15,046 nt of DNA from contig CP070758.1 in the NCBI GenBank assembly GCA_020348925.1, forward strand, positions 2,031,025 through 2,046,070, in the 5' to 3' direction. How positions within the stretch are numbered: the stretch's first letter is position 1; the number at the start of each line of letters is the position of its first letter. The notes beneath the pieces are model-generated. The model saw only the letters and a program-made list of their open reading frames with translations, was not told where the DNA came from and searched no databases. The stretch is from Gemmatimonadota bacterium (lineage in GTDB: Bacteria; JBHIER01; G020348925). Position numbers and translations under genes: made by a program. Positions 1 to 15,046 of the stretch are shown piece by piece.

Positions 1-2974
1 GTCCGTCGCCGCTCAACGGAACCGTCCCCAGAATGTGGTTTATGGTGGCCAGCACATCCAGAATATTGATGCTGCCGTCGTTGTTGACGTCCCCACGAAC
101 CCCCTCCAACCAGGAAGGACTGAAAGTGATCCCGATGTTCTCCTCCCAACCCTTGGTCACGCGCACTATCTCAGGCTCACCGGCACGACCCTCTATGGCT
201 CCACCGCGACTCCGAGAGCCGCCCTCGGCATAGTACATCCAGTTGCGATGAAACGCCCCGTCCGGAAGAAGGGGCTTGGCGAAAAATCGGACCGCCGTCT
301 CATCCGTGGCCCTCAGGTGAATCCAGAAATCCCCGCAAAGCCCGACCAGACTCTCGTAGTCCGGACGCTGCGTCAAGTCGAGCACAATCCGGCCGTCGGC
401 ATCGACGGAGTCCGGATAGAACAGAAAGGGGGCGATCAGCTCATCACCAAAAGTGCTGTCGTTTTCCCCCGGCCCAAAAACGTACACCTCCAAGGGTGAG
501 ACCTCATCGCTCATCCCCCGGTCCCGGCCTCTGTCCGGGCAAGAAGAGGACGAAACAGAACCGTTCCAGGCCGCACCGATCACAAGGGTCTGAAGAGCCG
601 CCTCTGGCGTCTCTCCCGGTATGCTGAAGCGGACTGCCGGCCCTGCACCGGGCTCCGACTCGACGCTATCGCGCTCCGTGCTGTAAGGATCAAAATAACC
701 CAAATACCCTGAACCGGATTCACTGACCGCCACAGGACCGATGAGCATCGTGTCGTTCACACCAAGCGTATCGCACGGAGATTCGAGTAAAACCTTCAGG
801 TAATACAGTCCACCAGCTGCCGGTCTCCAGTCGTACTCATAGGCATAGATAGTATCACCGGCTGGAAGGAGGAAGAAGGGATATTGAAACTTGGGGCCAA
901 TCGGATGGACATCGCCGGGGAGAATACTTACACCGCCCTCATCAAGGATATCGATGTAGGCATTTCCAGGGGCCATGTCGAGATTGCTGAGATTGGTAAT
1001 GGCAACCTGGACCGGCGTGGTATAGTTCACTGAAACCGGATTGGAAACTGCGATGTGGGTGACGGCGAAGTCGCACTCGGCGTGGATAACGAAAAACTCA
1101 TCGTTCTGGTCGCAGCAGGTGGAGTCCAGGGCGTCGCAGATGATGACGAGGCAGTTGTCGGAGGGGGTGCCGGGAACGGTCCAGTCATACGATCCATCGT
1201 CCTCGGTGCCTCCACTTATGGGTATGTAAAATTCGCCTCCGTCAGGGGAGTATTCGATGATGACTGTACCGCTGGTGTTTTCTGAAATCCACGTGATGAT
1301 CTCCGTCTCCCCAGCCTCCCAGATCTCCCCCCCGTTGGGGGAGCTGACCTCAAGGAAGCACGGTACCTGGATCTCGATACACTGGGAGAACTCAGACGTG
1401 TTGCCTGAAGGATCCGTGGCCGTGGCCGTTATGAATTGGCCCTCGGCAATAGCGTCAGAAGGGGTGAAACTGAAACTCGCATCGCCGCCAGTGTCAGTGT
1501 ATACAATTATCCCCTCCAAAAATGTCTCCCCTTCACCGTAGCCGGAAGGATCGCATTCGGTGTTGGAGAAGAAGTCGATTCTGAATTCTGTATTCGGCGT
1601 GCTGTTGAGGTTTCCTTGAACGAGGTCCGGTGTGGCCGAGGTTAACACTGGAAAATTTTGCACATGGTTGGCACCTGCATCACCATCCCCGGCATCATTG
1701 GGTGTCACGCCGTCATCGTTCAGATCGATTCCCAGGCCACCGTTGGAGAAGACGGTATTGGAGAGAATAGCGTTACCCGTGCCGGAAGAAGACACCACAC
1801 CTGCGAGCACGTTGAAGGCAATGGTATTACCTGCGGTCCCTCCAATACTGTTATCCGAGGCCTCATCATCGATCCGCACACCGTCCCCGCCATTTCCCAG
1901 GGCCCCTGTACCGTAGCTGTCGACACCGATGAAGTTGCCCAGCACCAGATTATCCGTGGTGCCGCTATTGGCTAAGTAGACGCCTGCGAAGCCGTTGCCT
2001 GAGATAACGTTGGTCGATTCCATCGAAGTTCCGCCGATGGTGTTGTTCGAGGCCTGCTGCTGGATAACGACGCCCGCGTTTGAGTTACCGATCGGTGATG
2101 TGCCGGTAACGTCAGTGCCGATAAAGTTGCCCTGCACGACATTGTTTGAGGCGGTGCTTTCAATAATCAGGACGCCGATGGCGTCGTTGCCTGAAATGAC
2201 ATTGTGAGCTCCGGGATTCGTTCCGCCGATGGTGTTGTTTGCCCCTCCGAAGATAGAGATCCCAAAGAGGGCGTTGCCCCGGTCGGCGGTTCCGCTGATG
2301 TCGGTGCCGATGAGGTTGCCCTGCACCACATTGCCGGTGACACCTGCACCTATCATGAGGACGCCCATCTGGGCGTTGCCTGATAGAAGGTTACGTGCCG
2401 CAGGCGTTGTTCCCCCGACGGTGTTGTTGCTGCTCCAAATCGATACGCCTTCCATGCCGTTGCCTGAAGCAGATATGCCGCTGAAATCCGTTCCGATGAA
2501 GTTGCCTTCGATGACATTTCCACCGCCGGTGTGTATCCAGATCCCCTCGGCGCTAAAATCTTTGATCACCAGCCCTCGCACCGTACTGTTCCCGGCAACG
2601 ATCTCCAGGCCCATGGCATCGCCGGCACTGCTTCCGTTCAGGACGATCTTCAATACCGTGTTCAGACCCTGGCCGACAGGATTTGTATTGGGACTGGCTC
2701 CGGTCTGTGTATAGCCGTCTATTATGACCGGATCGGTGATGGGGGGAAGGATAGATGAGGGCTGGATGGTATGCACCAAGCCAGCGGGGGGAATGTTGAA
2801 CTCGATAAGATCCGATCCCGGATTGCGGTTGGCGTCCTCGATGGCCTGTCTCAGTGAACCTGGCCCGCTGTCCTCTGCGTTCGTGACCGTGATGCTCATG
2901 GCCGGAAGCGAACCGGGCACTACCACGAACGCCAAGAGATACACAAGACCTACGATAAGCGATATGAGACGCAT
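1..2974 (-). CDS. Secreted right-handed beta-helix protein with C-terminal dockerin repeat (3' end outside window)
   Basis: The frame is open for 991 residues from ATG at 2974 to the left edge, so the C-terminus is missing. AAGGAGG (2984-2990) sits 9 nt before the ATG. Residues 1-25 are a signal peptide (MRLISLIVGLVYLLAF then a cleavage-like LPA). A GSLRQAIEDAN segment follows, of the kind that precedes many bacterial beta-helix regions. Residues about 155-420 are tandem beta-helix coils with recurring N-x-I-G-G-T, N-V-I-S-G-N and G-N-F-I-G-T-D motifs. Residues about 540-635 (SPNGGEIWEAGE) resemble the Kre9/KNH-like domain, and about 635-735 a CARDB-like Ig fold. Residues from about 961 form a dockerin type I calcium loop (D962, N964, D966, D973, then ATINHILG); a second repeat would lie off the window. 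It is probably exported and surface-attached or released, and binds a partner or polysaccharide through the helix. No lyase or hydrolase active site is recognisable. Substrate and cohesin partner are unknown. Confidence 0.9.
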   Translation of the reverse strand, partial: MRLISLIVGLVYLLAFVVVPGSLPAMSITVTNAEDSGPGSLRQAIEDANRNPGSDLIEFNIPPAGLVHTIQPSSILPPITDPVIIDGYTQTGASPNTNPVGQGLNTVLKIVLNGSSAGDAMGLEIVAGNSTVRGLVIKDFSAEGIWIHTGGGNVIEGNFIGTDFSGISASGNGMEGVSIWSSNNTVGGTTPAARNLLSGNAQMGVLMIGAGVTGNVVQGNLIGTDISGTADRGNALFGISIFGGANNTIGGTNPGAHNVISGNDAIGVLIIESTASNNVVQGNFIGTDVTGTSPIGNSNAGVVIQQQASNNTIGGTSMESTNVISGNGFAGVYLANSGTTDNLVLGNFIGVDSYGTGALGNGGDGVRIDDEASDNSIGGTAGNTIAFNVLAGVVSSSGTGNAILSNTVFSNGGLGIDLNDDGVTPNDAGDGDAGANHVQNFPVLTSATPDLVQGNLNSTPNTEFRIDFFSNTECDPSGYGEGETFLEGIIVYTDTGGDASFSFTPSDAIAEGQFITATATDPSGNTSEFSQCIEIQVPCFLEVSSPNGGEIWEAGETEIITWISENTSGTVIIEYSPDGGEFYIPISGGTEDDGSYDWTVPGTPSDNCLVIICDALDSTCCDQNDEFFVIHAECDFAVTHIAVSNPVSVNYTTPVQVAITNLSNLDMAPGNAYIDILDEGGVSILPGDVHPIGPKFQYPFFLLPAGDTIYAYEYDWRPAAGGLYYLKVLLESPCDTLGVNDTMLIGPVAVSESGSGYLGYFDPYSTERDSVESEPGAGPAVRFSIPGETPEAALQTLVIGAAWNGSVSSSSCPDRGRDRGMSDEVSPLEVYVFGPGENDSTFGDELIAPFLFYPDSVDADGRIVLDLTQRPDYESLVGLCGDFWIHLRATDETAVRFFAKPLLPDGAFHRNWMYYAEGGSRSRGGAIEGRAGEPEIVRVTKGWEENIGITFSPSWLEGVRGDVNNDGSINILDVLATINHILGTVPLSGDG

Positions 2975-3196
2975 CTCAGAGTCCCTCCTTTCCTTCCTCA
3001 CGGATATATTGAGTGTGTGTCAAAAAGTCCTCAGCCTTCGAATACCAGCTGACTTCGAAATTTTAAACGTTTTTAAATTCTTGAGGAATATCCATACTCT
3101 TTTTGCTGGAAGTTTTACACGAATGTCTGATTCTGGTTGATTCTCGTATATGCAGATGTGACGATGTCTTGGCTGATAGCCTGACAGCGTCATCTA

Positions 3197-3599: not shown

Positions 3600-6593
3600 A
3601 TGGATAATTTCATCGGTCAAACGATATCCCACTATCAAATCATCGAGAAACTCGGCGAAGGCGGCATGGGGGTCGTCTATAAGGCTGAGGACACCAAGCT
3701 CCGGCGCACCGTTGCCCTGAAATTTCTACCGGCAGTTATGACCCGTGACCCGGAGGCTAAGGAGCGCTTCATCCAGGAGGCACGGGCGGCCTCGGCCATG
3801 GACCATTCCAATATCTGTACCATTCATGAAATCGGCGAGACCGAAGATGGGCATATGTTCATCTGTATGGCCTGCTATGAGGGACAGACCCTCAAGGACA
3901 AAATCAAAGACGGACCGTTGGAGCTTGGAGAGGCCGTGAATATCGCTGTGCAGGCTGCGCAAGGTCTGGCCAAAGCTCACGATCAGGGAATTGCCCACCG
4001 GGACATCAAGCCGGCCAACATTTTCATCACCGAAGATAACGAGGTGAAAATCGTCGATTTCGGTCTGGCTAAATTGGCGGGTAACATGGGGCTCACGAAG
4101 ACCGGAACGACTGTGGGTACGGTGCCCTACATGTCACCCGAACAGATCCGCGGCCAGGGAGTTGATCACCGAACCGACATCTGGTCTCTGGGCGCGGTGT
4201 TGTATGAGATGGTCACCGGGGAGATGGCCTTCAAAGGGGAATACGAGCAGGCGGTGATGTATTCTATCATGAGTGAGGAGCCGGAGCCGATCGTAAATTT
4301 CCGCTCGGATGTGCCACAGGATCTGGAATGGGTTATCCAGAAGGCGCTCCAGAAGGATGTCAGCGAGCGATATCAGGATGTGGCTGAAATGCTGATCGAT
4401 CTGAGGAGGTTCGCCCAGGGTGCGGTGGTCGAAGGTGCGATCCGGCCGCCCAGGGTATTGGAGGAGGAGATCACAAAAAAATTGTTGAAGAGGATTGTGT
4501 TGCCTGTGGGTATTGTCCTCTTTTTCGTCATCGCCGTTGTCCTGGTCCGACCGCTTCTTCTCCAGCAGGTACTGGTTTCGGAGCCGAAGCCCATCGCCGT
4601 GATCAGCTTTGTCAACCAGACGGGGGACAGCACCTATGATTATCTCCAAACGGTCATTCCGAATTTATTGATCACGAGCCTTGAACAATCACCCAATATC
4701 CGTGTCGCCACCTGGGAGCGCATGTATGACCTCCTGAAACAGATCGGCAAGGAGGATAGGGATATCATTGACAGGGAACTGGGATTTGAAATCTGCCGCA
4801 TGGATGGTATCGATGTCATCGTCCTGGGCAGCTTCACCCGAACGGGCGATATATTCGCGACTGATGTGAAGGTGTTGGATGTGACAACGAAAGATCTGCT
4901 GAAGGGTGCCACGTTCAAAGGCGAGGGGGTTGCCAGCATTCTCAAAACACAGATCGATGAACTCACGAGGGAGATCTCTCGAGGTGTGGGCATTTCCGAT
5001 CTTGCGTTCGAAGAAGCCGGAACCGGGATCGCCGATATGACAACTTCCTCAATGGAGGCGTACAACTATTTCTTGAGGGGTAAAGAGAATTGCGAAAAAT
5101 TCTATTACGATGATGCCCTGCCATTTCTCGAAAAGAGTGTGGATCTCGATTCGACCTTCGCTGTGGCATACCTCTATCTTGGCTGGGCATACGATTGGTT
5201 GCACGATAACGACGCCAGAAAGAACGCCTACGAGAAGGCGAAAAAATTCTCCCAAAAAGCAACAGACAAGGAAAGACTCTATATCGAGGCGACGTACGCC
5301 GGGGAGATTGAAAACGATCGGGAAAAGAAATATCATGTCCTCAAACAGATTACCCAGAAATATCCGAAGGAAAAGCGAGCGCATCTCTTATTGGCGGAGT
5401 ATTACAGAACACAGAGAGTGCTGGCTGAGGCCATACTTGAGTTCCATAAGGCCCTGGAACTCGATCCCAATTACGGATTTGCCATGAATCAGCTGGCTTA
5501 CACGTACGCTGATAGTGGTGACTTTGAGAAGGCCATCGAATATTTTGAGAGGTACGCATCCGTATCTCCCGGGGACGCAAATCCATTCGATTCAATGGCC
5601 GAGCTCTATGTGCGCATGGGAAAGCTCGATGAGGCGATAGTACAATACAACAAGGCCTTGGACATAAAACCGGACTTCGGTTCGGATTGGAGTATCGCCT
5701 ACATCTATGCCTTGAAGGAAGAGTACTCCGAGGTCATGACGTGGATCAATCAGTTTTTATCCATGGCCCCTTCGCCGGGGATACGAGTACAGGGATATGT
5801 GTGGAAGGGGCTGTATCACTGCTTACTGGGGAGTTTCGACGAGTCCCTGAGTGATCTTGAAAGAGCGGTGGAACTGGCCGACGTCATAGGGAACGAGGCG
5901 TGGAAAGCCCATGCGGACAGGACAAAAGCGTGGATTTATTATGAGAAGGGTGAGTTTGAGCGCGGTCGGAGATTCATTCGAAATTGGCTCGATTTCTATT
6001 CAGAATACTATCCACCATACATACCATATTTTACGGCCAGTCATAAAACGTATCTTGGTTTGGCTGATATAAAGCAGGGGCGAACCGATTCGGCATGGGT
6101 CAGGCTGGAAGATATAAAATCTCTGTTGCCCGACATAGCTCCGAAGGTGAAGGGAAATATAACGTTCGGTTATGACGTGCTTTACGGAGAGTACTTGCTC
6201 GCTTCAGACTCCCTCGAAAAAGCCATCGCTACCGGCGAAAAAGCATCGCCTCTGGGAAAGCTTCCGCTGATGCACCCATGGAATCTCCTCCCCTATAATG
6301 TGCCCTTCCGGAAAGATGTATTGGCGCGGGCATATCAACGGACGGGAGAGATCGACGAAGCCATCTCCGAGTACGAGCGTTTGATCACAGTTGACCCGAA
6401 CAGCGTGGAGCGGCCGCTCATTCACCCCGTGTATCACTATCATTTAGCCAATCTGTATTCGGAGAAGGGCCTGTCAGACAAAGCCGTTTCCCAGTACGAG
6501 CAGTTCCTCGACATCTGGAAGGATGCCGATGAAGATCTGCCAGAACTGATAGACGCCAAGGCGAGATTGGCGAGGTTGAGGGAGGCGGGTTGA
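3600..6593 (+). CDS. Transmembrane Ser/Thr protein kinase with TolB-like domain and TPR repeats
   Basis: This 997-residue protein starts at ATG 3600 with GGAG 7 nt upstream. Residues about 12-272 are a Hanks-type kinase with all key residues: glycine loop GEGGMGVV (19-26), K41 in VALK, E60 in helix C, HRDIKPAN (133-140, catalytic D135), DFG (153-155), GTVPYMSPE before E181, and D193. It should therefore be active. A basic stretch is followed by one membrane span at about 298-318. Residues about 329-460 match the TolB-N/FlgO-like fold (PIAVISFVNQTGD) often attached to such kinases. Residues about 470-995 are TPR-like helices with classical units such as ALELDPNYGFAMNQLAYTYA. The kinase would face the cytoplasm and the TolB/TPR part the periplasm, where it may sense an envelope partner. 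Ligand and substrates cannot be read from the sequence. No partner gene is co-transcribed. Confidence 0.95.
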   Translation: MDNFIGQTISHYQIIEKLGEGGMGVVYKAEDTKLRRTVALKFLPAVMTRDPEAKERFIQEARAASAMDHSNICTIHEIGETEDGHMFICMACYEGQTLKDKIKDGPLELGEAVNIAVQAAQGLAKAHDQGIAHRDIKPANIFITEDNEVKIVDFGLAKLAGNMGLTKTGTTVGTVPYMSPEQIRGQGVDHRTDIWSLGAVLYEMVTGEMAFKGEYEQAVMYSIMSEEPEPIVNFRSDVPQDLEWVIQKALQKDVSERYQDVAEMLIDLRRFAQGAVVEGAIRPPRVLEEEITKKLLKRIVLPVGIVLFFVIAVVLVRPLLLQQVLVSEPKPIAVISFVNQTGDSTYDYLQTVIPNLLITSLEQSPNIRVATWERMYDLLKQIGKEDRDIIDRELGFEICRMDGIDVIVLGSFTRTGDIFATDVKVLDVTTKDLLKGATFKGEGVASILKTQIDELTREISRGVGISDLAFEEAGTGIADMTTSSMEAYNYFLRGKENCEKFYYDDALPFLEKSVDLDSTFAVAYLYLGWAYDWLHDNDARKNAYEKAKKFSQKATDKERLYIEATYAGEIENDREKKYHVLKQITQKYPKEKRAHLLLAEYYRTQRVLAEAILEFHKALELDPNYGFAMNQLAYTYADSGDFEKAIEYFERYASVSPGDANPFDSMAELYVRMGKLDEAIVQYNKALDIKPDFGSDWSIAYIYALKEEYSEVMTWINQFLSMAPSPGIRVQGYVWKGLYHCLLGSFDESLSDLERAVELADVIGNEAWKAHADRTKAWIYYEKGEFERGRRFIRNWLDFYSEYYPPYIPYFTASHKTYLGLADIKQGRTDSAWVRLEDIKSLLPDIAPKVKGNITFGYDVLYGEYLLASDSLEKAIATGEKASPLGKLPLMHPWNLLPYNVPFRKDVLARAYQRTGEIDEAISEYERLITVDPNSVERPLIHPVYHYHLANLYSEKGLSDKAVSQYEQFLDIWKDADEDLPELIDAKARLARLREAG

Positions 6594-7122: not shown

Positions 7123-8133
7123 TCAGACACCCTGGAGCATGTGCAGTTGCCACAGTTCCCGGCTGCTCGTATGAAGAAAGGGCGAAATGGCCAACCTCCC
7201 TGTTTTCCCGATGCTTTTTTCCAAATATCTCATCTCCTCGAAGTTCTCTCGTATCTCCGGGTCCGCAGAGGGTTCGAATCCGGCCTCCCGTAGCATGAGT
7301 ATCCCCTTGGCTCTGACGGACAACTCCAGGTGAATCCGCAACAGACACAGCATATCGGCCACAATCTCTCCGGAAAACCGGTCTTTGAGGGAATCCAGGT
7401 ACCTCCCAATTTTGGTCTCCGAGATGTTTCCCGTGGTGATCATGTCGAGAAGAAGGACATCCGTATCAAGACCCACCTCCAGCCAGAATTGGAGGGATTT
7501 TTCGCTCCGGGAGAAAACGACAACGATGACCAGGGGAAGCAGAATTAACTGCAAGACGGTTGTCACAACCGGCGAGAAGATGAAGTTGTTAAAGAATCCA
7601 TGGATTACAATCGCTACGATGATTCCCGGGAGAAAGATGTGGAATTTTTCAGTGAATCCCCGATCGGCTGCATTCTTTGACATGATCCCCATGGCTGCCG
7701 TTGTCCCACCATGCATCACCGCCGTTCCCAGTCCTCGAAGGATCCAAAGGAATATATTCGCATCCTGCAAATACTTGAGATAATATATGTTTTCGACAAG
7801 GGCGAAGCCGGCCCCGATGGCGAAGCCGTAGATGGCCGCATCCACCAGAAATCCGATCCTTTTCGATTTGATTAAAAAGACAATATAGACTGCCTTGAAT
7901 AGCTCCTCAATAACCGGGGCTCCACCCTTGGAGTATGATGAGAAATCGACGCCCAAAAGATTTATCAAGAGACTGTTCATGAACAGGGATCCCACTGCTG
8001 TAACGCAACCAATGAGGATCGTCAGCAGGATCGAGCGAAATTTCACCAGCTTATAGCTGTCCAATACTACAAAAGCCACAAGGAAATAGAAAACGGGCAG
8101 GAGACTTACTGACGCTCTGACGATGAAATCCAC
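7123..8133 (-). CDS. PrsW-family intramembrane protease
   Basis: This 336-residue protein starts at GTG 8133; an in-frame stop lies about 30 nt upstream and no other start is close. No clear Shine-Dalgarno precedes it. It is a multi-spanning membrane protein with the motifs of the PrsW family: EELFK (E76, E77, K80), GFALVEN (E114, N115), MHGGT (H141) and HGFFN (H178, N182). Members such as Bacillus PrsW cut membrane-bound anti-sigma factors; the substrate here is unknown. After the last membrane span (about residue 207) a soluble tail of about 130 residues follows that I do not recognise. The gene follows the 8255-11242 gene in the same direction after 121 bp with no visible terminator, so read-through is possible. 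Confidence 0.88.
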   Translation of the reverse strand: MDFIVRASVSLLPVFYFLVAFVVLDSYKLVKFRSILLTILIGCVTAVGSLFMNSLLINLLGVDFSSYSKGGAPVIEELFKAVYIVFLIKSKRIGFLVDAAIYGFAIGAGFALVENIYYLKYLQDANIFLWILRGLGTAVMHGGTTAAMGIMSKNAADRGFTEKFHIFLPGIIVAIVIHGFFNNFIFSPVVTTVLQLILLPLVIVVVFSRSEKSLQFWLEVGLDTDVLLLDMITTGNISETKIGRYLDSLKDRFSGEIVADMLCLLRIHLELSVRAKGILMLREAGFEPSADPEIRENFEEMRYLEKSIGKTGRLAISPFLHTSSRELWQLHMLQGV

Positions 8134-8254: not shown

Positions 8255-11242
8255 CTATCTCAATATTTTAAGGGAAATCATAAACTCTTTCTCTATAGAA
8301 TGATGTTTCTCGAAGGCCAATGCATATCCCAGAGAGAGTGTCGACGGAAGGTTAGAGAATATGACGAGCTGCATATCTATCTGACCACCGGCATTCATTA
8401 CGGATCGTCTGTAATCTTTGCTCGTCAGCTCGAAGAGATCGTCAGGATCCACGTTCGTCTTGATTCCGGAGGTGAAAACGGCCATTCGGGCCCAGTTACA
8501 GTACAGGACAGGAAATCCGAATCGCCGGAATCGCAGAGGCGGAAAGGTCCATTCGAGCATCATTTTGGCGTAATTTGTACCACCGATGGCGTTGAGCTCG
8601 ACACCGGGAAAGCTGTAATACTCCCTGTAACGCTTGATGGACAAATAATCGACCCAGTTGTTGCCAAACCCTCCGAAATAAAAGTTGGCAAAGGGTTCGT
8701 CCCGATCACCGTGAGCATATCCGAAGGAGCTTCTCAACCAGAGTGCCATGTGCTCGATGGGGAGCAAAAACCCGTAATCGAGGTTTGCGTTGACATGAGG
8801 GTAGAATTTTTCGTTGACGTAGGTGTTGAAGGAGTTTATTTGCCCAGTCACCCCTTTCTCGGAATCGACCCCACCCAATGTTGTCCGCTTATTGGAGTAA
8901 TTCAAATTTGCCCGCAGTGTCACAAACTTGTCGTAGGAGACCGCAACGTTCTGGAAATCCGGGAGCCGTTCGAGTCCGCCGTAACCGGCCACATTGAAGG
9001 AATAATCCAGCATCTTCGGCTTCTCGTAGATGAGGTAACTTTGATAATTCAGGGACAACGAATAGCCTTTCCGACTCTTCTTGGTGGGGCCGAAAAGGTC
9101 GTAGAAATCCGCTCCGTTGTATGAGGCCGAGATATCCCACGGCCACTTGCTATAGTTAAAGGTGGTGTGGAATCGTTCGTCACCCGGTAATTTCGAATAG
9201 GGCGAATAGGATGCTGTGAGATTGAAGTCGTTCATCCTGATGGGATCGGCGAAATTCATGCGGATCCCAAGGGCCACATAATCACTGTGTCCGTCAACGT
9301 ACGTGTCCCTGTATCCCTCAACAACGGGATAGACGGAGGCAAGTTTTATGTTCCGAAAAGGACTGTAGGGACCGCTAAAGGTTGTCAGGGAATCGATATT
9401 GATGGACGCCGGTGATCCGGCCATCCACTCCGTGACGATGGGGTGTCGGTCCACAACGGCCTGCCCCAGGTACCGTATGGCACTCACGTCCTCCAGCGGT
9501 TGCGCGGAGATCATGACCGGTAGAAATCCTTTCCCTGTGTACCGGAAGACGATGAGAGAGTCGCCCGGGAGAGGGACCGGTCGAAAGAAACCGGTCTCGC
9601 AATTTGTCAGGATGTCCATGTGTTCGGTTTCGAAATCGTATCTCCAGACGTTTGAGACACCCGTGTAGTATGAGGTTCCGAGGAGATAGCGACCGTCGTC
9701 AGTGAAGACAAAATTTTGAGGGGCATTTTCCTCGAATTCGTACAGCACGTCGTAGGAGGTGTCCTTGCTCAGGAGGTTTTCGATGTTCATTCTGATGAGA
9801 CGCTGCCTGCCGGTGACCTCGATGATGGACGCCGTCAGGTACTTTCCGTCCGGGGAGATATCGAGATCGAAGATGTTCTTTCCGTAGGGCAAGACGAAAA
9901 TATCCTCCCACGTCTCATAAGGAGATGGAATCCGAACCACTATGGATCGCCCGTTGTGGTGTTGCACACCCCATAACGATTTGTCCGCACGATTGAAGGC
10001 CAGATCCCCGGTCCGACAGTCCTTGATCAGCCTTTTCGACGTTCCGGTCTGAAGGTCGACGACCCGAATATCCCGCCAGCGAAAAACGTTATCGGTCGTG
10101 AAGAAGATGTTCCGTGTGTCCGGATCGTAGGCCAGGGACGAGACGTAGTACAAGGCAGGCCCGGGAACATTGCAGATCTTCTCGATCCTGCCGGTGTCGA
10201 TATCGATGGAGGAGATGTTGGCCAGTTGGCCGGGGTAGAGGGTGGCTGCATACAGTTTTCTCGTCACTGGATCGTAGAATGAGCGTGAGACCGAGCCGAG
10301 GGCGCGCTCGGACAGAGGCCGATACTGCGTCACAGGATTGGCATGAATCGAGTCGAGATTTGTCCGTTGCCACTGATGCTCCCACTCGACCCAAGCGACC
10401 CACTCGTCATCCAGGGATCGCCCGTACACCTTCTTGAACTGGGAGGTAAAATATCGTTTGCTCTCACCAGTTCGATCGAACCACTCCAGCAGTTTCTCAG
10501 GCCCATAGTGATAGGCCAGATAGCTCACGAAACGGGTCCCGTAGAGGTAAGAGTTTTGGCCGACCTGAAAATCGATGGTCGTGCCCTCGGATTCGAGCCC
10601 CACGATATCGTAGAAGTAGCTGCTGTCCCGAACCATGGTTCTGAAAACCATCTCATCATAACCACCCAGGGCGCGTCCGAGACCTCCAGACATCCACGTC
10701 TCCAAAAAGACGGCGATCCCTTCATGGTACCACCGCGGACAGTACCACCGGGGACTCGTCAGATAACTGTAAAACATCGAGAGGGGATAGTCGGCGATGG
10801 GCAAGACCTTTCCGAAGAATATCGTACGATAGAATTCATCGTTCGGTGAAGATTTGTCTGTGGCCACCACGTGGACAAGCTCATGGTGCATGAGCCAGTT
10901 CATTCGCTCATTGGACGGGGCCGTTTCATACACCTGCTCAAAAGGTTCGATACCGAGGGTGATGTAGTTCCAGGGCATCGTTATCGTCCCGCCGTGTCCA
11001 ATATCTCCAAAATCATGCAGCAGAATGAGCACTTTTTCCGAAGGCGTATAGTCAAAAAGCTCCCTGTGAAACTTCATTGAGTTTTCGAAACTCCGGGCCA
11101 GATGGGCAATGATGTAGTAACTTTCCTCGAAGTACACCAAAAGCAGAAACTCTGTCTCCAGCGACTGAAGCTGCACTGAGGCGGCGGGCATTGAGATGAG
11201 GAATAAAAAAATGCAACTTATAGAAAAAACAAAACGTTTCAC
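8255..11242 (-). CDS. Exported metallopeptidase (HExxH, MA-like) fused to beta-propeller and C-terminal beta-barrel
   Basis: I choose GTG 11242: AAAGGGAGGG (11251-11260) lies 8 nt upstream, and the product then begins MKRFVFSISCIFLFLI, an ideal signal peptide. An in-frame ATG at 11263 would add 7 residues, but it overlaps that ribosome site. With the GTG start (995 residues), about 35-295 is a gluzincin domain: HELVH (H120, E121, H124) and a downstream E174 in WYHEGIAVFLE, the usual third zinc ligand of peptidase-MA-like domains. Residues about 313-593 carry repeated blades with S-P-D-G-K/T-D-D-G-R motifs (TolB/WD40-like propeller). Residues about 633-995 alternate polar and hydrophobic with many aromatics (YSLSLNYQSY, FNYSKWPW), like a surface-antigen/BamA-type barrel. 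It probably sits in the outer membrane. The last residue is R, not the usual aromatic of many barrels, so the barrel call is less certain than the peptidase. Confidence 0.88.
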   Translation of the reverse strand: MKRFVFSISCIFLFLISMPAASVQLQSLETEFLLLVYFEESYYIIAHLARSFENSMKFHRELFDYTPSEKVLILLHDFGDIGHGGTITMPWNYITLGIEPFEQVYETAPSNERMNWLMHHELVHVVATDKSSPNDEFYRTIFFGKVLPIADYPLSMFYSYLTSPRWYCPRWYHEGIAVFLETWMSGGLGRALGGYDEMVFRTMVRDSSYFYDIVGLESEGTTIDFQVGQNSYLYGTRFVSYLAYHYGPEKLLEWFDRTGESKRYFTSQFKKVYGRSLDDEWVAWVEWEHQWQRTNLDSIHANPVTQYRPLSERALGSVSRSFYDPVTRKLYAATLYPGQLANISSIDIDTGRIEKICNVPGPALYYVSSLAYDPDTRNIFFTTDNVFRWRDIRVVDLQTGTSKRLIKDCRTGDLAFNRADKSLWGVQHHNGRSIVVRIPSPYETWEDIFVLPYGKNIFDLDISPDGKYLTASIIEVTGRQRLIRMNIENLLSKDTSYDVLYEFEENAPQNFVFTDDGRYLLGTSYYTGVSNVWRYDFETEHMDILTNCETGFFRPVPLPGDSLIVFRYTGKGFLPVMISAQPLEDVSAIRYLGQAVVDRHPIVTEWMAGSPASINIDSLTTFSGPYSPFRNIKLASVYPVVEGYRDTYVDGHSDYVALGIRMNFADPIRMNDFNLTASYSPYSKLPGDERFHTTFNYSKWPWDISASYNGADFYDLFGPTKKSRKGYSLSLNYQSYLIYEKPKMLDYSFNVAGYGGLERLPDFQNVAVSYDKFVTLRANLNYSNKRTTLGGVDSEKGVTGQINSFNTYVNEKFYPHVNANLDYGFLLPIEHMALWLRSSFGYAHGDRDEPFANFYFGGFGNNWVDYLSIKRYREYYSFPGVELNAIGGTNYAKMMLEWTFPPLRFRRFGFPVLYCNWARMAVFTSGIKTNVDPDDLFELTSKDYRRSVMNAGGQIDMQLVIFSNLPSTLSLGYALAFEKHHSIEKEFMISLKILR

Positions 11243-11300
11243 GAGTGATTCCCTCCCTTTCATTCCACATAGTTCTCTTGGAATTTATCACCTGTGACCA

Positions 11301-11329: not shown

Positions 11330-11346
11330 GTTTTTTGTTATAAAAA

Positions 11347-11377
11347 GAAAGAGATGCCGAGCCTCGGCATCTCTTTC
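11347..11377 (-). terminator. Rho-independent terminator of the octapeptide-repeat gene
   Basis: Arms 11363-11377 and 11347-11361 are perfect 15-bp inverted repeats with GC-rich core (GATGCCGAG / CTCGGCATC) and a single unpaired base; a few central pairs would open to form the loop. On the minus strand the hairpin is followed at once by TTTTT (11346-11342). It lies 32 nt after the stop codon at 11410-11412. Confidence 0.9.
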
Positions 11378-11409
11378 CCCTCTACTGTGTATGTCAACGA
11401 CCGCCTGTC

Positions 11410-14400
11410 TTAGTGTTGATACTCCAGCTGGAAGGCCTGCAGATCGGAAACTAAGTTCTCAAGAGCTCGGATTTCCTCTCTCTGCAGAGTGGGGATCACC
11501 TGCTTCCTGAACCCATCAAACTCAGCCACAAGGTTCTCCAAAGCCTGGATCTGCTCGCGCTCCAGAGCCGGGATGACCCGCTTGTCCAAAGTCCGCAACT
11601 CAGCGCCCATATGTTCAAGGGCTTGGATCTGCTCACGCTCCAGGGCCGGGATGACCTGCTTCTGAAAGCCGTCATACTCAGTGACCAGGTTCTGCAAGGC
11701 CAGGATCACTTGCTTCTCGAGCACCCGCAGCTCCTGCCGCTCCAGGGCCGGAATGACCTGCCGGTCCAAAGTGCGGAACTCACCGGCCATATGCTCAAGG
11801 GCCTGGATCTGCTCGCGCTCCAGGGCCGGGATGACCTGCTTCTGGAAGCCATGAAACTCAGTCACAAGGCTCTGCAGGGCTTGAATCTCTTGCCTCTGGA
11901 GGACCACTATCTCTTGCCTCTCAAGAGCGGGAATGATCTCTCGCTCCAGGGCCGGGATCACCTGCTTCTGCAGGGCCGGAATGACCTGCCGCTCCAGGGC
12001 CGGAATGACCTGCCGGTCCAGTGTCCGGAACTCACCGGCCATGTGTTCGAGGGCACGAATCTCCTCTTTCTCCAGGGCCGGGATCACCTGCTTCTGAAAA
12101 CCATGAAAGGCAAGTGTCAGGTTCTCTAGGGCAGGGATGATCTCTTTCTCCAGGGCCGGGATCACCTGCTTCTGCAGGGCCAGAATGACCTGCTTCTGCA
12201 ATGCGGGGATGATCTCTTTCTCCAGAGCTTGAATTTCCTGCTTCTCCAGGGCTGGAATGACCTGTCGCTCCAGGGTCGGGAGAACCTCTCTCTGCAAGGT
12301 CAGAATGACCTGCCTCTGGAGGGCCGGGATGACCTGCTTGTCCAGGGTGTTCAGCTCAGCGCCCATATGTTCGAGGGCACGAATCTCCTCTTTCTCGAGG
12401 GCCGGGATCACCTGCTTCTGGAAACCATCGTACTCTTTAACCAGGCTCTCCAGAGCCGGGATGACCTCTCTCTCCAGGGCCGGGATCACCTGCTTGAACA
12501 AGGCAGGTAAGACCTCTTTTTCCAGGGCCAGAATCACCTGCTTCTCATAAGCTGGGATCACTTGCCTCTTTAGGGTGCTTAACTCAACCGCCATATGCTC
12601 AAGAGCCTGAATCTGTTCTCTCTCCAGAGCCGGGATCACCTGTTTCTGGAAACCATCAAACTCCGTGACCAAACTCTCCAACGCCTGAACCACTTCCTTT
12701 TCGAGGACCCGCAGCTCCTGGCGCTCAAAAGCAGGGATCACCTGCTTGTCCAGGGTGCGCAATTCAACCGCCATACTTTCGAGAGCCCTGATTTCCTCTC
12801 TCTCCAGCGCCGGGATGACCTGCCTCTGAAAACCGTGAAACTCAGTGACAAAACCCTGCAACACCTGAATCTCTTGCTTCTGGAGAACCAGCATCTCTTG
12901 CCGCTCCAAGGCCGGGATGACCTCTCTCTGAAGCGCCGGGATCACTTGTCTCTCCAGGGCCGGAATGATTTGCCGCTCCAGGGCCGGAATGACCTGCTTG
13001 TCCAGGGTAGTCAACTCAGCGGCCATGTGCTCAAGAGCACGGACTTCCTCTCTCTCTAAGGCCGGGATAACCTGCTTCTGAAAGCCATGAAACTCTTTGA
13101 CCAAATTCTCCAGGGCCGGGATGACCTCCCGCTGCAAGGCCAAGATCACCTGCTTTTCCAGAGCCGGGATGACCTCCCGCTCCAGGGCCGGAATGACCTC
13201 TCTCTCCAGCGCCGGGATCATCTCCCTCTCCAGAGCCGGAATAACCTGCCGCTCCAAGGCAGGGATCACCTGCTTCTGCAGGGCTGGAATTATCTGCCGC
13301 TCCAGAGCCGGAATGACCTGCTTGTCCAGGGTGTTCAGTTCTGCGGCCATATGTTCCAGAGCCCGGATTTCCTCTTTCTCCAGAGCCGGGATCACCTGCT
13401 TCTGGAACCCGTCAAATTCAACCACCACGTTCTCAAGAGCAGAAACGACCTCTTTCTGCAGGGCCAGAATGACCTGCTTCTCCAGGGCCGGGATGACCTC
13501 TCTCTGCAGGGCCAGAATGACCTGCTTCTCATAAGCCGGGATCACCTGCTTCTCCAGGGTGCTCAGCTCAGCGGCCATATGTTCCAGAGCCTGGATCTGC
13601 TCACGCTCCAGAGCCGGGATCACCTGCTTCTGGAAGCCATCAAACTCTTTGACCAGGTTCTCCAACGCCCGAATTTCTTCCCTTTCGAGAACCATTATTT
13701 CCTGCCTCTCAAGAGCGGGAATGACCTGTCGTTCCAAGGCCGGAATGACCTGCCGCTCCAAGGCCGGAATGACCTGCCGCTCTAAAGTAGGAATGATCTG
13801 CTTGTCTAAGGTGTTCAGCTCAGCAGCCATGCGTTCGAGAGCTTGGATCTGCTCGCGCTCCAGTGCAGGAATCACCTGTTTCTTGAAACCATCAAACTCC
13901 TTGACCAGGTTTTCCAGGGCCGGGAGGACCTCTCTCTGCAGAGCCGGGATGACCTGCTTATTCAAAGCGGGAATGACCTCTTTCTCCAGGGCAGGGATCA
14001 TCTCTTTCTCCAGGGCCGGAATAACCTGCCTGTCCAAGGTAGGAACAACCTCTTTCTGGAGTGCCGGCAGGACCTCTCTCTGCAGGGCAGGAATAACCTC
14101 TCTCTGCAGCGCAGGAATGACCTGCTTGTCCAATGTGCTCAATTCAGCGGCCATATGTTCGAGGGCTTGAATCTGCTCTTTTTCCAGCGCGGGCATCACC
14201 TGCCTTTTGAAGCCATCGAACTCCTTAACCAGGTTCTCCAAAGCCGGAATAACCTCTTTCTCCAAGGCCGGAATGACCTGTTTTTCCAAAGCCGGGATGA
14301 CCTCTTTCTCCAAAGTCAGCATCACCTGCTTCTCGAATGTGGGGACCACGAGCTTTTCCAGTTTCCGCAACTGAGCGGTTGTCTGCTCGAGGGCCTGAAT

Positions 14401-14817
14401 TTGCTCTTTCTCAAGAACAGGAAGCACCTGCTTCCGAAAACCATCAAACTCTGTCACGAGATTCTCTAACGCACGCAGCTCCTCCTTCTCTAAGACGGGG
14501 GTCACCTGCCGTCCCAAGTGCTGCAATCTGGCAATCAAGTTCGCCAGTTGACGACCATCCATCTCCCCCAATTGGGGCTTCGTCGTATTTTCAAAGGCCT
14601 CAAACTGCGCCGCCAAATTAAGGAGTTGTTGGCCTTCGAGGACCACGTCACTTTCTGTAATCTGATCCGCCCGGTATTTCTTGACTTTTCCGATCGTACC
14701 CCGTACGTCTTCACCGGGCGTAGGTGGATAGAAGAACGCAAAATAAGCGATGACAAGAACTGCGATGACTATGCCACCAGCTAAAATTTTCTTCATCAAA
14801 CCACTGCGCTTTTCCAT
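11410..14817 (-). CDS. Membrane-anchored octapeptide-repeat protein of unknown function
   Basis: This 1135-residue protein starts at ATG 14817 with AAGGGAGGG (14825-14833) 7 nt upstream. It has one N-terminal membrane span (about 10-30, ILAGGIVIAVLVIAYFAFFY) after a basic start. The rest is probably periplasmic, though a cytoplasmic location is not excluded. Residues 37-104 are a non-repetitive cap (RGTIGKVKKYRADQITESD). From 105 to the end everything is octads (consensus VIPALE-K/R-E/Q) and decads. Decads are of two kinds, A (VKEFDGFQKQ) and B (AAELSTLDKQ), strictly alternating: A at 121, 197, 305, 389, 465, 573, 657, 717, 793, 901, 985, 1045 and 1097. Two octads follow every A; 2-9 follow every B. 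I see no Cys or Trp. Proline recurs every 8 residues, unlike an ordinary coiled coil. I recognise no catalytic motif or named family. A structural rod, spacer or molecular ruler is one idea; this is inference. Confidence 0.92.
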   Translation of the reverse strand: MEKRSGLMKKILAGGIVIAVLVIAYFAFFYPPTPGEDVRGTIGKVKKYRADQITESDVVLEGQQLLNLAAQFEAFENTTKPQLGEMDGRQLANLIARLQHLGRQVTPVLEKEELRALENLVTEFDGFRKQVLPVLEKEQIQALEQTTAQLRKLEKLVVPTFEKQVMLTLEKEVIPALEKQVIPALEKEVIPALENLVKEFDGFKRQVMPALEKEQIQALEHMAAELSTLDKQVIPALQREVIPALQREVLPALQKEVVPTLDRQVIPALEKEMIPALEKEVIPALNKQVIPALQREVLPALENLVKEFDGFKKQVIPALEREQIQALERMAAELNTLDKQIIPTLERQVIPALERQVIPALERQVIPALERQEIMVLEREEIRALENLVKEFDGFQKQVIPALEREQIQALEHMAAELSTLEKQVIPAYEKQVILALQREVIPALEKQVILALQKEVVSALENVVVEFDGFQKQVIPALEKEEIRALEHMAAELNTLDKQVIPALERQIIPALQKQVIPALERQVIPALEREMIPALEREVIPALEREVIPALEKQVILALQREVIPALENLVKEFHGFQKQVIPALEREEVRALEHMAAELTTLDKQVIPALERQIIPALERQVIPALQREVIPALERQEMLVLQKQEIQVLQGFVTEFHGFQRQVIPALEREEIRALESMAVELRTLDKQVIPAFERQELRVLEKEVVQALESLVTEFDGFQKQVIPALEREQIQALEHMAVELSTLKRQVIPAYEKQVILALEKEVLPALFKQVIPALEREVIPALESLVKEYDGFQKQVIPALEKEEIRALEHMGAELNTLDKQVIPALQRQVILTLQREVLPTLERQVIPALEKQEIQALEKEIIPALQKQVILALQKQVIPALEKEIIPALENLTLAFHGFQKQVIPALEKEEIRALEHMAGEFRTLDRQVIPALERQVIPALQKQVIPALEREIIPALERQEIVVLQRQEIQALQSLVTEFHGFQKQVIPALEREQIQALEHMAGEFRTLDRQVIPALERQELRVLEKQVILALQNLVTEYDGFQKQVIPALEREQIQALEHMGAELRTLDKRVIPALEREQIQALENLVAEFDGFRKQVIPTLQREEIRALENLVSDLQAFQLEYQH
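11686..12669 (-). repeat. Super-repeat 3 of octapeptide gene (4 A-B pairs, residues 717-1044)
   Basis: This block has exactly the same length (984 bp) and the same 5, 9, 6, 3 octad series as super-repeat 2, with the same marker octads (VIPAYEKQ-VILAL, E-I-V-V-L, RQELRVLEK). By hand count, 61 of the first 76 residues equal those of super-repeat 2. A short terminal unit follows (11413-11685): a pair with only 2 octads, a last A decad, and a degenerate end. Confidence 0.85.
12670..13653 (-). repeat. Super-repeat 2 of octapeptide gene (4 A-B pairs, residues 389-716)
   Basis: This 984-bp block encodes four A-B pairs with 5, 9, 6 and 3 octads after the B decads. Marker octads fix the register: VIPAYEKQ-VILAL opens the 5-block, E-M-L-V-L marks the end of the 6-block, and RQELRVLEK marks the 3-block. 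Confidence 0.85.
13654..14457 (-). repeat. Super-repeat 1 of octapeptide gene (3 A-B pairs, residues 121-388)
   Basis: This 804-bp block encodes three A-B pairs whose B decads are followed by 5, 9 and 6 octads. It is 60 residues shorter than the next two super-repeats because the fourth pair (B plus 3 octads) is missing. Its first B block (VVPTFEKQ, VMLTLEKE) is the most diverged, as expected for an edge copy. Confidence 0.8.
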
Positions 14818-14875: not shown

Positions 14876-14896
14876 CTAACGGATCAGACGAACCAT
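14876..14896 (-). other. Possible 6-codon leader ORF with ideal ribosome site
   Basis: On the minus strand AAGGAGGTGA (14908-14899), a full match to the usual 16S tail, precedes ATG at 14896 with 5 nt after the GGAGG core. The frame reads M-V-R-L-I-R and stops with TAG at 14876. It ends 58 nt before the ATG of the octapeptide gene. It could be a leader peptide, or the site may serve ribosome loading. A chance ATG after a purine run cannot be excluded. Confidence 0.35.
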
Positions 14897-15046
14897 ACTC
14901 ACCTCCTTTTTTCATTGTCCAAATCTTTCAAGATCGTTAACTCATTACGTTGTCTTATCAAAGTACAAATCAAACTCGAAATAGTTGGTCTTTTTTTATA
15001 CTTTTCCAATCATCCGGTATCCCGCCTGACAATAATAGGGCGGTCA

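Follow-up and report, generated by a model that had tools for sequence, protein, structure and literature searches.

The window analysed here, a 15,046-nucleotide stretch of contig CP070758.1 from a Gemmatimonadota bacterium, encodes a 1,135-residue, membrane-anchored tandem-repeat protein, referred to hereafter as REP. Judged from gene order, REP is the third member of a conserved extracytoplasmic function (ECF) sigma envelope-stress locus, which keeps the same order in distant genomes. We propose, at roughly even odds (a probability of about 0.5), that REP is an extracytoplasmic, length-defined helical sensor or spacer of this stress system. The first-pass annotation of the window, which had drawn attention to the octapeptides and ten-residue inserts of the protein, proposed no function for it; the neighbouring genes supply one.

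Gene context of REP

The features of the window that belong to the locus are as follows.

11410-14817, minus strand: REP gene (1,135-residue membrane-anchored tandem-repeat protein), an open frame with a strong ribosome-binding site; the ratio of nonsynonymous to synonymous divergence (dN/dS) between its internal copies is 0.10-0.15.
8255-11263, minus strand: metalloprotease/propeller protein, with a secreted gluzincin-type (HELVH) domain, a beta-propeller-like middle and a likely outer-membrane barrel end; the match to Peptidase_MA_2 is weak.
7123-8133, minus strand: PrsW intramembrane protease (PF13367, E 8e-24).
11342-11382, minus strand: intrinsic terminator just 3' of REP (fold -27.5 kcal/mol, z -6.3).
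15010-15046, minus strand: 3' end of an anti-sigma gene, 37 bases (DRPIIVRRDTG-stop), with an identical reading in L006 8609-9409.

At the locus of one relative, an ECF sigma gene and an anti-sigma gene accompany a REP relative and a homolog of the gene next to REP in the window. With the metalloprotease/propeller protein (window 8255-11263; hereafter the protease protein) as bait, 32 further loci were fetched, and 36 loci were examined overall. Twenty-eight of the 36 have an ECF sigma or anti-sigma gene upstream, on the same strand; of the other eight, four are cut by contig ends. In 22 loci, the gene directly behind that of the protease protein encodes PrsW. The complete order, seen in L033, is PP2C phosphatase, RsbW-like protein, sigma factor, anti-sigma factor, REP, protease protein and PrsW. 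Relatives of the protease protein encoded beside REP are 47-63% identical, and HExxH is kept in 24 of the 25 protease proteins compared, the exception being a partial sequence without that region. The PrsW protein at 7123-8133 is the only one of its genome, and its same-locus relatives are 46-56% identical. Co-occurrence was tallied across the 82 genomes of one phylum, with thresholds of E <1e-9 for the REP N-terminus and more than about 45% identity for the protease protein. Both were present in 15 genomes, one alone in 1 and 2, and neither in 64 (Fisher p 2e-13).

The window ends at a 100-N scaffold gap. The junction at its right edge recurs at L006 8215-8645 (C1:4.94 Mb), over 331 bp at 98.8% identity, beside another 100-N gap. 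Beyond that junction, L006 carries an anti-sigma gene followed by ECF sigma, RsbW-like and PP2C genes. The sigma factor (L006 9390-9941) has regions 2 and 4 only (Pfam Sigma70_r2 and r4_2), while the anti-sigma factor (L006 8609-9409) has one transmembrane (TM) helix and a weak NCBIfam anti-sigma match (E 0.002), with homologs in place at many loci. Given the gene order in L033, the edges of the window and of L006 are almost certainly one locus split by scaffolding, which would place the REP gene 190 bp behind the anti-sigma gene. A candidate second repeat gene in the same genome, at C1:4936311, was rejected, as it is the other edge of the REP locus across the scaffold gap. The recurrence of the junction 2.9 Mb away indicates that the scaffold order is probably wrong there, or that strain variants were retained. 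Between the anti-sigma and REP genes, in both copies, lies a tiny minus-strand frame, MVRLIR (window 14876-14896), with a strong Shine-Dalgarno sequence (ATGGTTCGTCTGATCCGTTAG); it is possibly a leader peptide or a relic.

Hairpins comparable to the terminator behind REP are found 3' of the REP gene in several relatives. Because of this terminator, sigma, anti-sigma and REP probably form one transcription unit, with the protease gene as a unit of its own.

The repeat array

The coordinates and length given for the REP gene in the first-pass annotation were correct; the gene lies on the minus strand, behind the ribosome-binding site GGAGGGTAAAGCAATG. The protein has a pI of 5.0 and contains neither Cys nor Trp. 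Its parts are listed below.

14728-14817, minus strand: residues 1-30, positive N-terminus and single TM helix (type II anchor) without an obvious cleavage site; the TM helix is kept in all relatives.
14638-14712, minus strand: residues 36-60, conserved motif ED..GTIG..KKYR..QI...DVVL, from an alignment of 22-27 relatives; no Pfam or NCBIfam match above cut-off.
11422-14613, minus strand: residues 69-1132, predicted helical array of VIPALEKQ octads with A (xxEFDGFxKQ) and B (AAELxTLDKQ) decads, from the parse and low-confidence AlphaFold models.
13576-14379, minus strand: superunit copy 1 (residues 147-414), without a 60-residue module.
12592-13575, minus strand: superunit copy 2 (residues 415-742).
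11608-12591, minus strand: superunit copy 3 (residues 743-1070).

The array was parsed by dynamic programming into octads (consensus V-I-P-A-L-E-K/R-Q/E), A decads (xxEF[DH]GFxKQ) and B decads (AAELxTLDKQ). From residue 105 onwards, the parse reproduced the previous count of 96 octads, 13 A decads and 12 B decads, with the strict alternation of A and B that had been described. The claim that the chain resolves from there without remainder holds for nearly all of it: 96 x 8 + 25 x 10 gives 1018 residues and leaves 13 at the C-terminus, where a B decad in degenerate form (VSDLQAFQLE), the thirteenth, can be recognized ahead of YQH. Similarly, the grammar does run from residue 105, but the array starts earlier, with a diverged A..B block at residues ~69-104. 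Two regularities had gone unmentioned. Exactly two octads stand inside every A..B pair (12 of 12), giving a fixed 36-residue block, and the octad runs from B to the next A (5,9,6 / 5,9,6,3 / 5,9,6,3 / 2) form a 328-residue superunit in three copies, the first of which lacks one 60-residue module. The octad pattern matches REP 93 times; 1,000 shuffles gave 1.5 matches on average and never more than 8.

Synonymous codons differ between copies, as had been reported: the 97 parsed octads have 95 distinct DNA versions. Comparison of the superunit copies gave proportions of synonymous and nonsynonymous differences (pS and pN) of 0.56-0.67 and 0.12-0.14 respectively, along with the low dN/dS given above. 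The differences fall mostly at third codon positions, the copies align without any internal gap, and their best mutual match is in register. We conclude that the array is an old, selected feature of the protein and that its superunits are under purifying selection.

At 100 degrees per residue, each octad would shift the hydrophobic stripe of a helix by +80 degrees and each decad by -80 degrees. The 36-residue block (A decad, two octads, B decad) amounts to ten whole turns, so that its hydrophobic face would be kept. The hydrophobic period is 4.0 in octad runs and ~3.65-3.7 in the A-octad-octad-B blocks, and prolines in the octad runs sit opposite the V/L stripe. Two AlphaFold models, one of the single sequence and one of the superunit with the internal copies as alignment, were all-helical, at a mean predicted local distance difference test score (pLDDT) of 44 and 46.

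The REP family and the turnover of its array

A search with only the first 150 residues of REP found relatives in other genomes. They share the TM helix and a motif, PP..ED..GTIG..K.KYR..QI...DV.L, for which Pfam and NCBIfam contain no family scoring above cut-off. Over the N-terminus, the REP of the window aligns with 26 others at 30-60% identity, and an N-terminal profile brings in further members at E 1e-9 to 1e-25. There are more than 30 relatives, spread across at least four phylum-level groups under the genome grouping used, in which the window's phylum is represented by one genome and G190 and G172 stand for two others; G078 and G326 fall outside the phyla of G190 and G172 and may share one phylum. 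N-terminal matches in G260 (RNase Y-like) and G330 (an unrelated TM protein) were rejected. At L036 5351-7473, three tandem REP genes (203-215 residues) without clear arrays lie beside the protease protein and PrsW genes.

In the 33 family proteins that were read, the array has a period of 12 (or 6), 9 (or 18), 11, 22 or 44 residues, of 8/10 as in the window, or none that is clear. The repeat grammar is therefore not a defining feature of REP. Whether homologs keep the octad/decad grammar had been put forward as a check; those with the same N-terminus and locus use a period of 12, 9, 11, 22 or 44, or no clear one, instead. On this comparison of sequences, the octad/decad grammar is the version of the window's lineage and not a trait of the family. 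The family is undescribed, as first proposed, in that the array falls under no Pfam, NCBIfam or PDB family, but its grammar does not define it.

In a tree of the protease protein, the window locus groups with the 12-residue clade, with a support (89/89) that is below the certainty threshold; the nearest sequence to the window's is that of L060, at 63% identity. Period 9 requires at least three changes on the starred branches of this tree.

The first-pass annotation had taken free variation of unit length as an argument against its repeat family. Such variation is found between lineages, while inside clades both unit and array lengths are exact. Array lengths agree without gaps at 602 and 602 residues (71% identity) and at 330 and 330 (61%), and nearly agree at 598/599, at 602/598 (54%) and at 534/532. 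This exactness is the strongest support for selection on protein spacing, which had been suggested from the window alone, whereas the changes of unit between lineages refute a conserved octad/decad grammar. The arrays of the 12-residue clade are also punctuated by a decad-sized insert, MEAFDKLPMQ, which in several species recurs at spacings of 142, 130 and 142; species with arrays of 54% identity have these spacings in common. The inserts recall the FDG core of the window's A decad and, at a guess, may be homologous to it.

The conservation of length bears on two other explanations of REP. The array could be amphipathic and lie on membrane or bind lipid, in the manner of apolipoproteins or perilipins, as proline-kinked helices on or around lipid that do not span the envelope. 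Its regular amphipathic helical units and periodic prolines would suit such a role, as would the period of the A-octad-octad-B blocks, which is near the 11/3 period of apolipoprotein- and perilipin-type helices, and there is a weak match to Perilipin_2 (E 0.024). That match scores 14.5 bits against a cut-off of 30.1, a family match is absent, and the 11/3 period does not run throughout, since the octad runs peak at 4.0. Moreover, the units of 9, 11, 12 and 22 residues in the relatives have no common amphipathic pitch, and a lipid coat needs no exact conservation of length. We consider this explanation improbable. A little less probable still is that REP is a proteolytic decoy or a sacrificial substrate: the neighbouring metalloprotease would cut the array, and the resulting fragments, or the loss of the array, would report the state of the envelope. 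The locus does encode two proteases, one with a conserved HExxH, and the array is of low complexity, but exact length within clades and purifying selection on every unit exceed the needs of a decoy.

An anti-sigma fusion and the proposed function of REP

In G434 (L053 6582-7637), one open frame free of Ns comprises an anti-sigma domain, a TM helix, the GTIG motif and an 11-residue-period array. The anti-sigma domain is recognized by NCBIfam (E 6e-9) and by BLAST to the anti-sigma factors of the locus (E 7e-6 to 2e-5), and the frame starts inside the end of the sigma gene. This fusion indicates that a REP-type array can act as the extracytoplasmic part of an anti-sigma factor.

In the mechanism that we propose, the single N-terminal helix would anchor REP in the inner membrane, with the juxtamembrane GTIG..KYR motif next to it, and the alpha-helical array would extend outside the cytoplasm. 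REP would partner the anti-sigma factor and sense on its behalf outside the cytoplasm; the rod or bundle of fixed length formed by REP would reach or measure the envelope, at the outer-membrane protease protein or the peptidoglycan. A change in the envelope would then make the anti-sigma factor or REP more or less accessible to proteolysis, and the sigma factor would be freed. PrsW is a candidate intramembrane protease for sigma release, and the outer-membrane protease protein is a candidate partner. If only length, helicity and anchoring matter, this would account for the re-invention of unit sequence and unit length between lineages alongside exact array length within them. Of this mechanism, the locus, the co-occurrence, the fusion, the TM helix, the conserved length and the purifying selection are observed, while a periplasmic location, the contacts, action as a ruler and proteolysis are inferred.

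REP could instead be a structural effector, an envelope-strengthening rod or tether that is a target of the locus sigma factor and stands outside the sensing machinery. It ends the sigma/anti-sigma transcription unit, with the terminator behind it; it is kept without sigma at some loci; and proteins with tandem repeats and a conserved length typically have structural roles. The G434 fusion, however, is hard to square with a mere target gene, and we regard this explanation as unlikely.

Several observations weigh against REP as a length-defined sensor or spacer. The anti-sigma/REP fusion is a single case. L034 and L036 contain REP and the protease protein with no sigma or anti-sigma gene within the fetched stretch, and the terminator between REP and the protease gene in the window means that the two are probably not one transcript. 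As a single straight helix, the array would measure ~1,590 Å, far longer than the periplasm. Array lengths range from 203 to 1,135 residues between lineages, a spread not predicted by a strict periplasm ruler unless the arrays differ in fold, and the confidence of the AlphaFold models is too low for a useful structure.

Relation to known proteins and systems

Searches of Pfam, NCBIfam, PHROGs and PDB with the REP array revealed no family that covers it. Matches to RAD51D_N, a type III secretion system translocon, phrog_36925 and others, including those from the Pfam scans, were short and compositional, without coherent coverage of REP, and PDB matches to the stalk helices of CorA were generic helix matches. 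No relative of the array turned up when the contigs of 84,980 species, viral contigs and phages were scanned with patterns, or when 386 diverse genomes were searched with a profile. Three array matches were rejected: that in G305 is TrpE-like, that in G059 is a short tandem repeat without a gene, and that in G040 is a tetrad-type helical protein without a TM helix or the locus, judged to be convergent. The absence of phage matches in the scans, together with the stress-locus context, led us to reject an identity as a phage tape-measure protein. Separately, L003 1195-3510 encodes a 771-residue soluble helical protein of no named family, unrelated to REP, with a hydrophobic residue every four positions (ELRPALEEELAQEL), and L004 ~1500-1770 carries a short array of 24-nucleotide tandem repeats, apparently intergenic, that reads SLETRGVA in one frame.

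By tblastn, REP aligns with ALTTAQ-repeat proteins (PF20080) from rhizobial plasmids over ~1,000 residues, at 24% identity and with E values as low as 1e-45; PDB 9zem (HeliScrew4) matches the ALTTAQ repeat. The superunit profile of REP picks up 9zem too, at E 0.015, but CorA helices match it at least as well. The alignments score 196 and 179 bits, as compared with 60-73 for a reversed control and at most 28 for an octad-permuted control, and the two groups have in common the octad period, an I-x-A-L core and giant tandem arrays. That REP is itself an ALTTAQ octapeptide-repeat protein with a HeliScrew-type fold is nevertheless very improbable. The PF20080 model gives REP 12.3 bits against a cut-off of 26.4 and is absent from hmmscan at E<=1; the ALTTAQ consensus is QIAALSTA, as against VIPALEKQ, and decads are present in REP and not in ALTTAQ proteins. 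The proline of REP lies half an octad off from the Ser/Thr-Pro start of HeliScrew4 units. Furthermore, the REP relatives at the locus are not octad proteins, which argues that the REP octad arose within the REP family. We know of no sigma locus for ALTTAQ proteins. We take the likeness in pattern to be real, the octads being of the same kind, and to be a loose parallel, not membership. Among the alternatives to a sensor or spacer, we rank the structural effector first, the lipid-binding array second, the proteolytic decoy third and ALTTAQ membership last.

The SigW-RsiW-PrsW system of Bacillus subtilis resembles the REP locus in its ECF sigma factor, membrane-spanning anti-sigma factor and PrsW-family protease; there, site-1 cleavage of the anti-sigma factor RsiW is the work of PrsW (PMC3498285). 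The REP locus has in addition REP, the metalloprotease/propeller protein of the outer membrane and, in many cases, genes for an RsbW-like kinase and a PP2C phosphatase, and a cleavage role for its PrsW is a candidate one. The best NCBIfam score of the locus sigma factor is with the SigW model, yet it is below that model's cut-off. In Escherichia coli, Lpp and RcsF must be matched in length for envelope signalling, and this Rcs system is alike in the principle proposed for REP, namely that signalling is set by the length of an envelope-spanning component (PMC5736177). It is an analogy only: the sequences are unrelated, and the output of Rcs is a phosphorelay, not a sigma factor. Thermotoga Omp-alpha, TolA and similar proteins are membrane-anchored, long periplasmic helical spacers. 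Unlike REP, they are built of heptad coiled coils or have other architectures, and no sequence match between rods of this type and REP was found in the Pfam or PDB searches.

Elsewhere in the window, positions 3600-6593 encode a serine/threonine kinase with TPR repeats, and positions 2-3001 of the minus strand encode a secreted repeat protein with a dockerin-like C-terminus, which runs past the window edge.

Significance

The octad/decad protein is the visible end of an undescribed family tied, in phyla about which little is known, to a conserved locus for stress signalling. The REP family also shows clearly how tandem repeats can turn over, the function outlasting even a complete exchange of the unit. 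Tentatively, and with the odds somewhat against it, the family may represent a widespread system in which a modular helical array acts as a length-coded envelope sensor, its length exactly selected in each lineage and its unit repeatedly replaced (8/10, 9, 11, 12, 22, 44), with REP serving the anti-sigma factor as an extracytoplasmic domain, whether detachable or fused. If REP is indeed a sensor, its many independent arrays, their exact lengths within clades and the one anti-sigma fusion would be natural experiments on how the envelope is measured.

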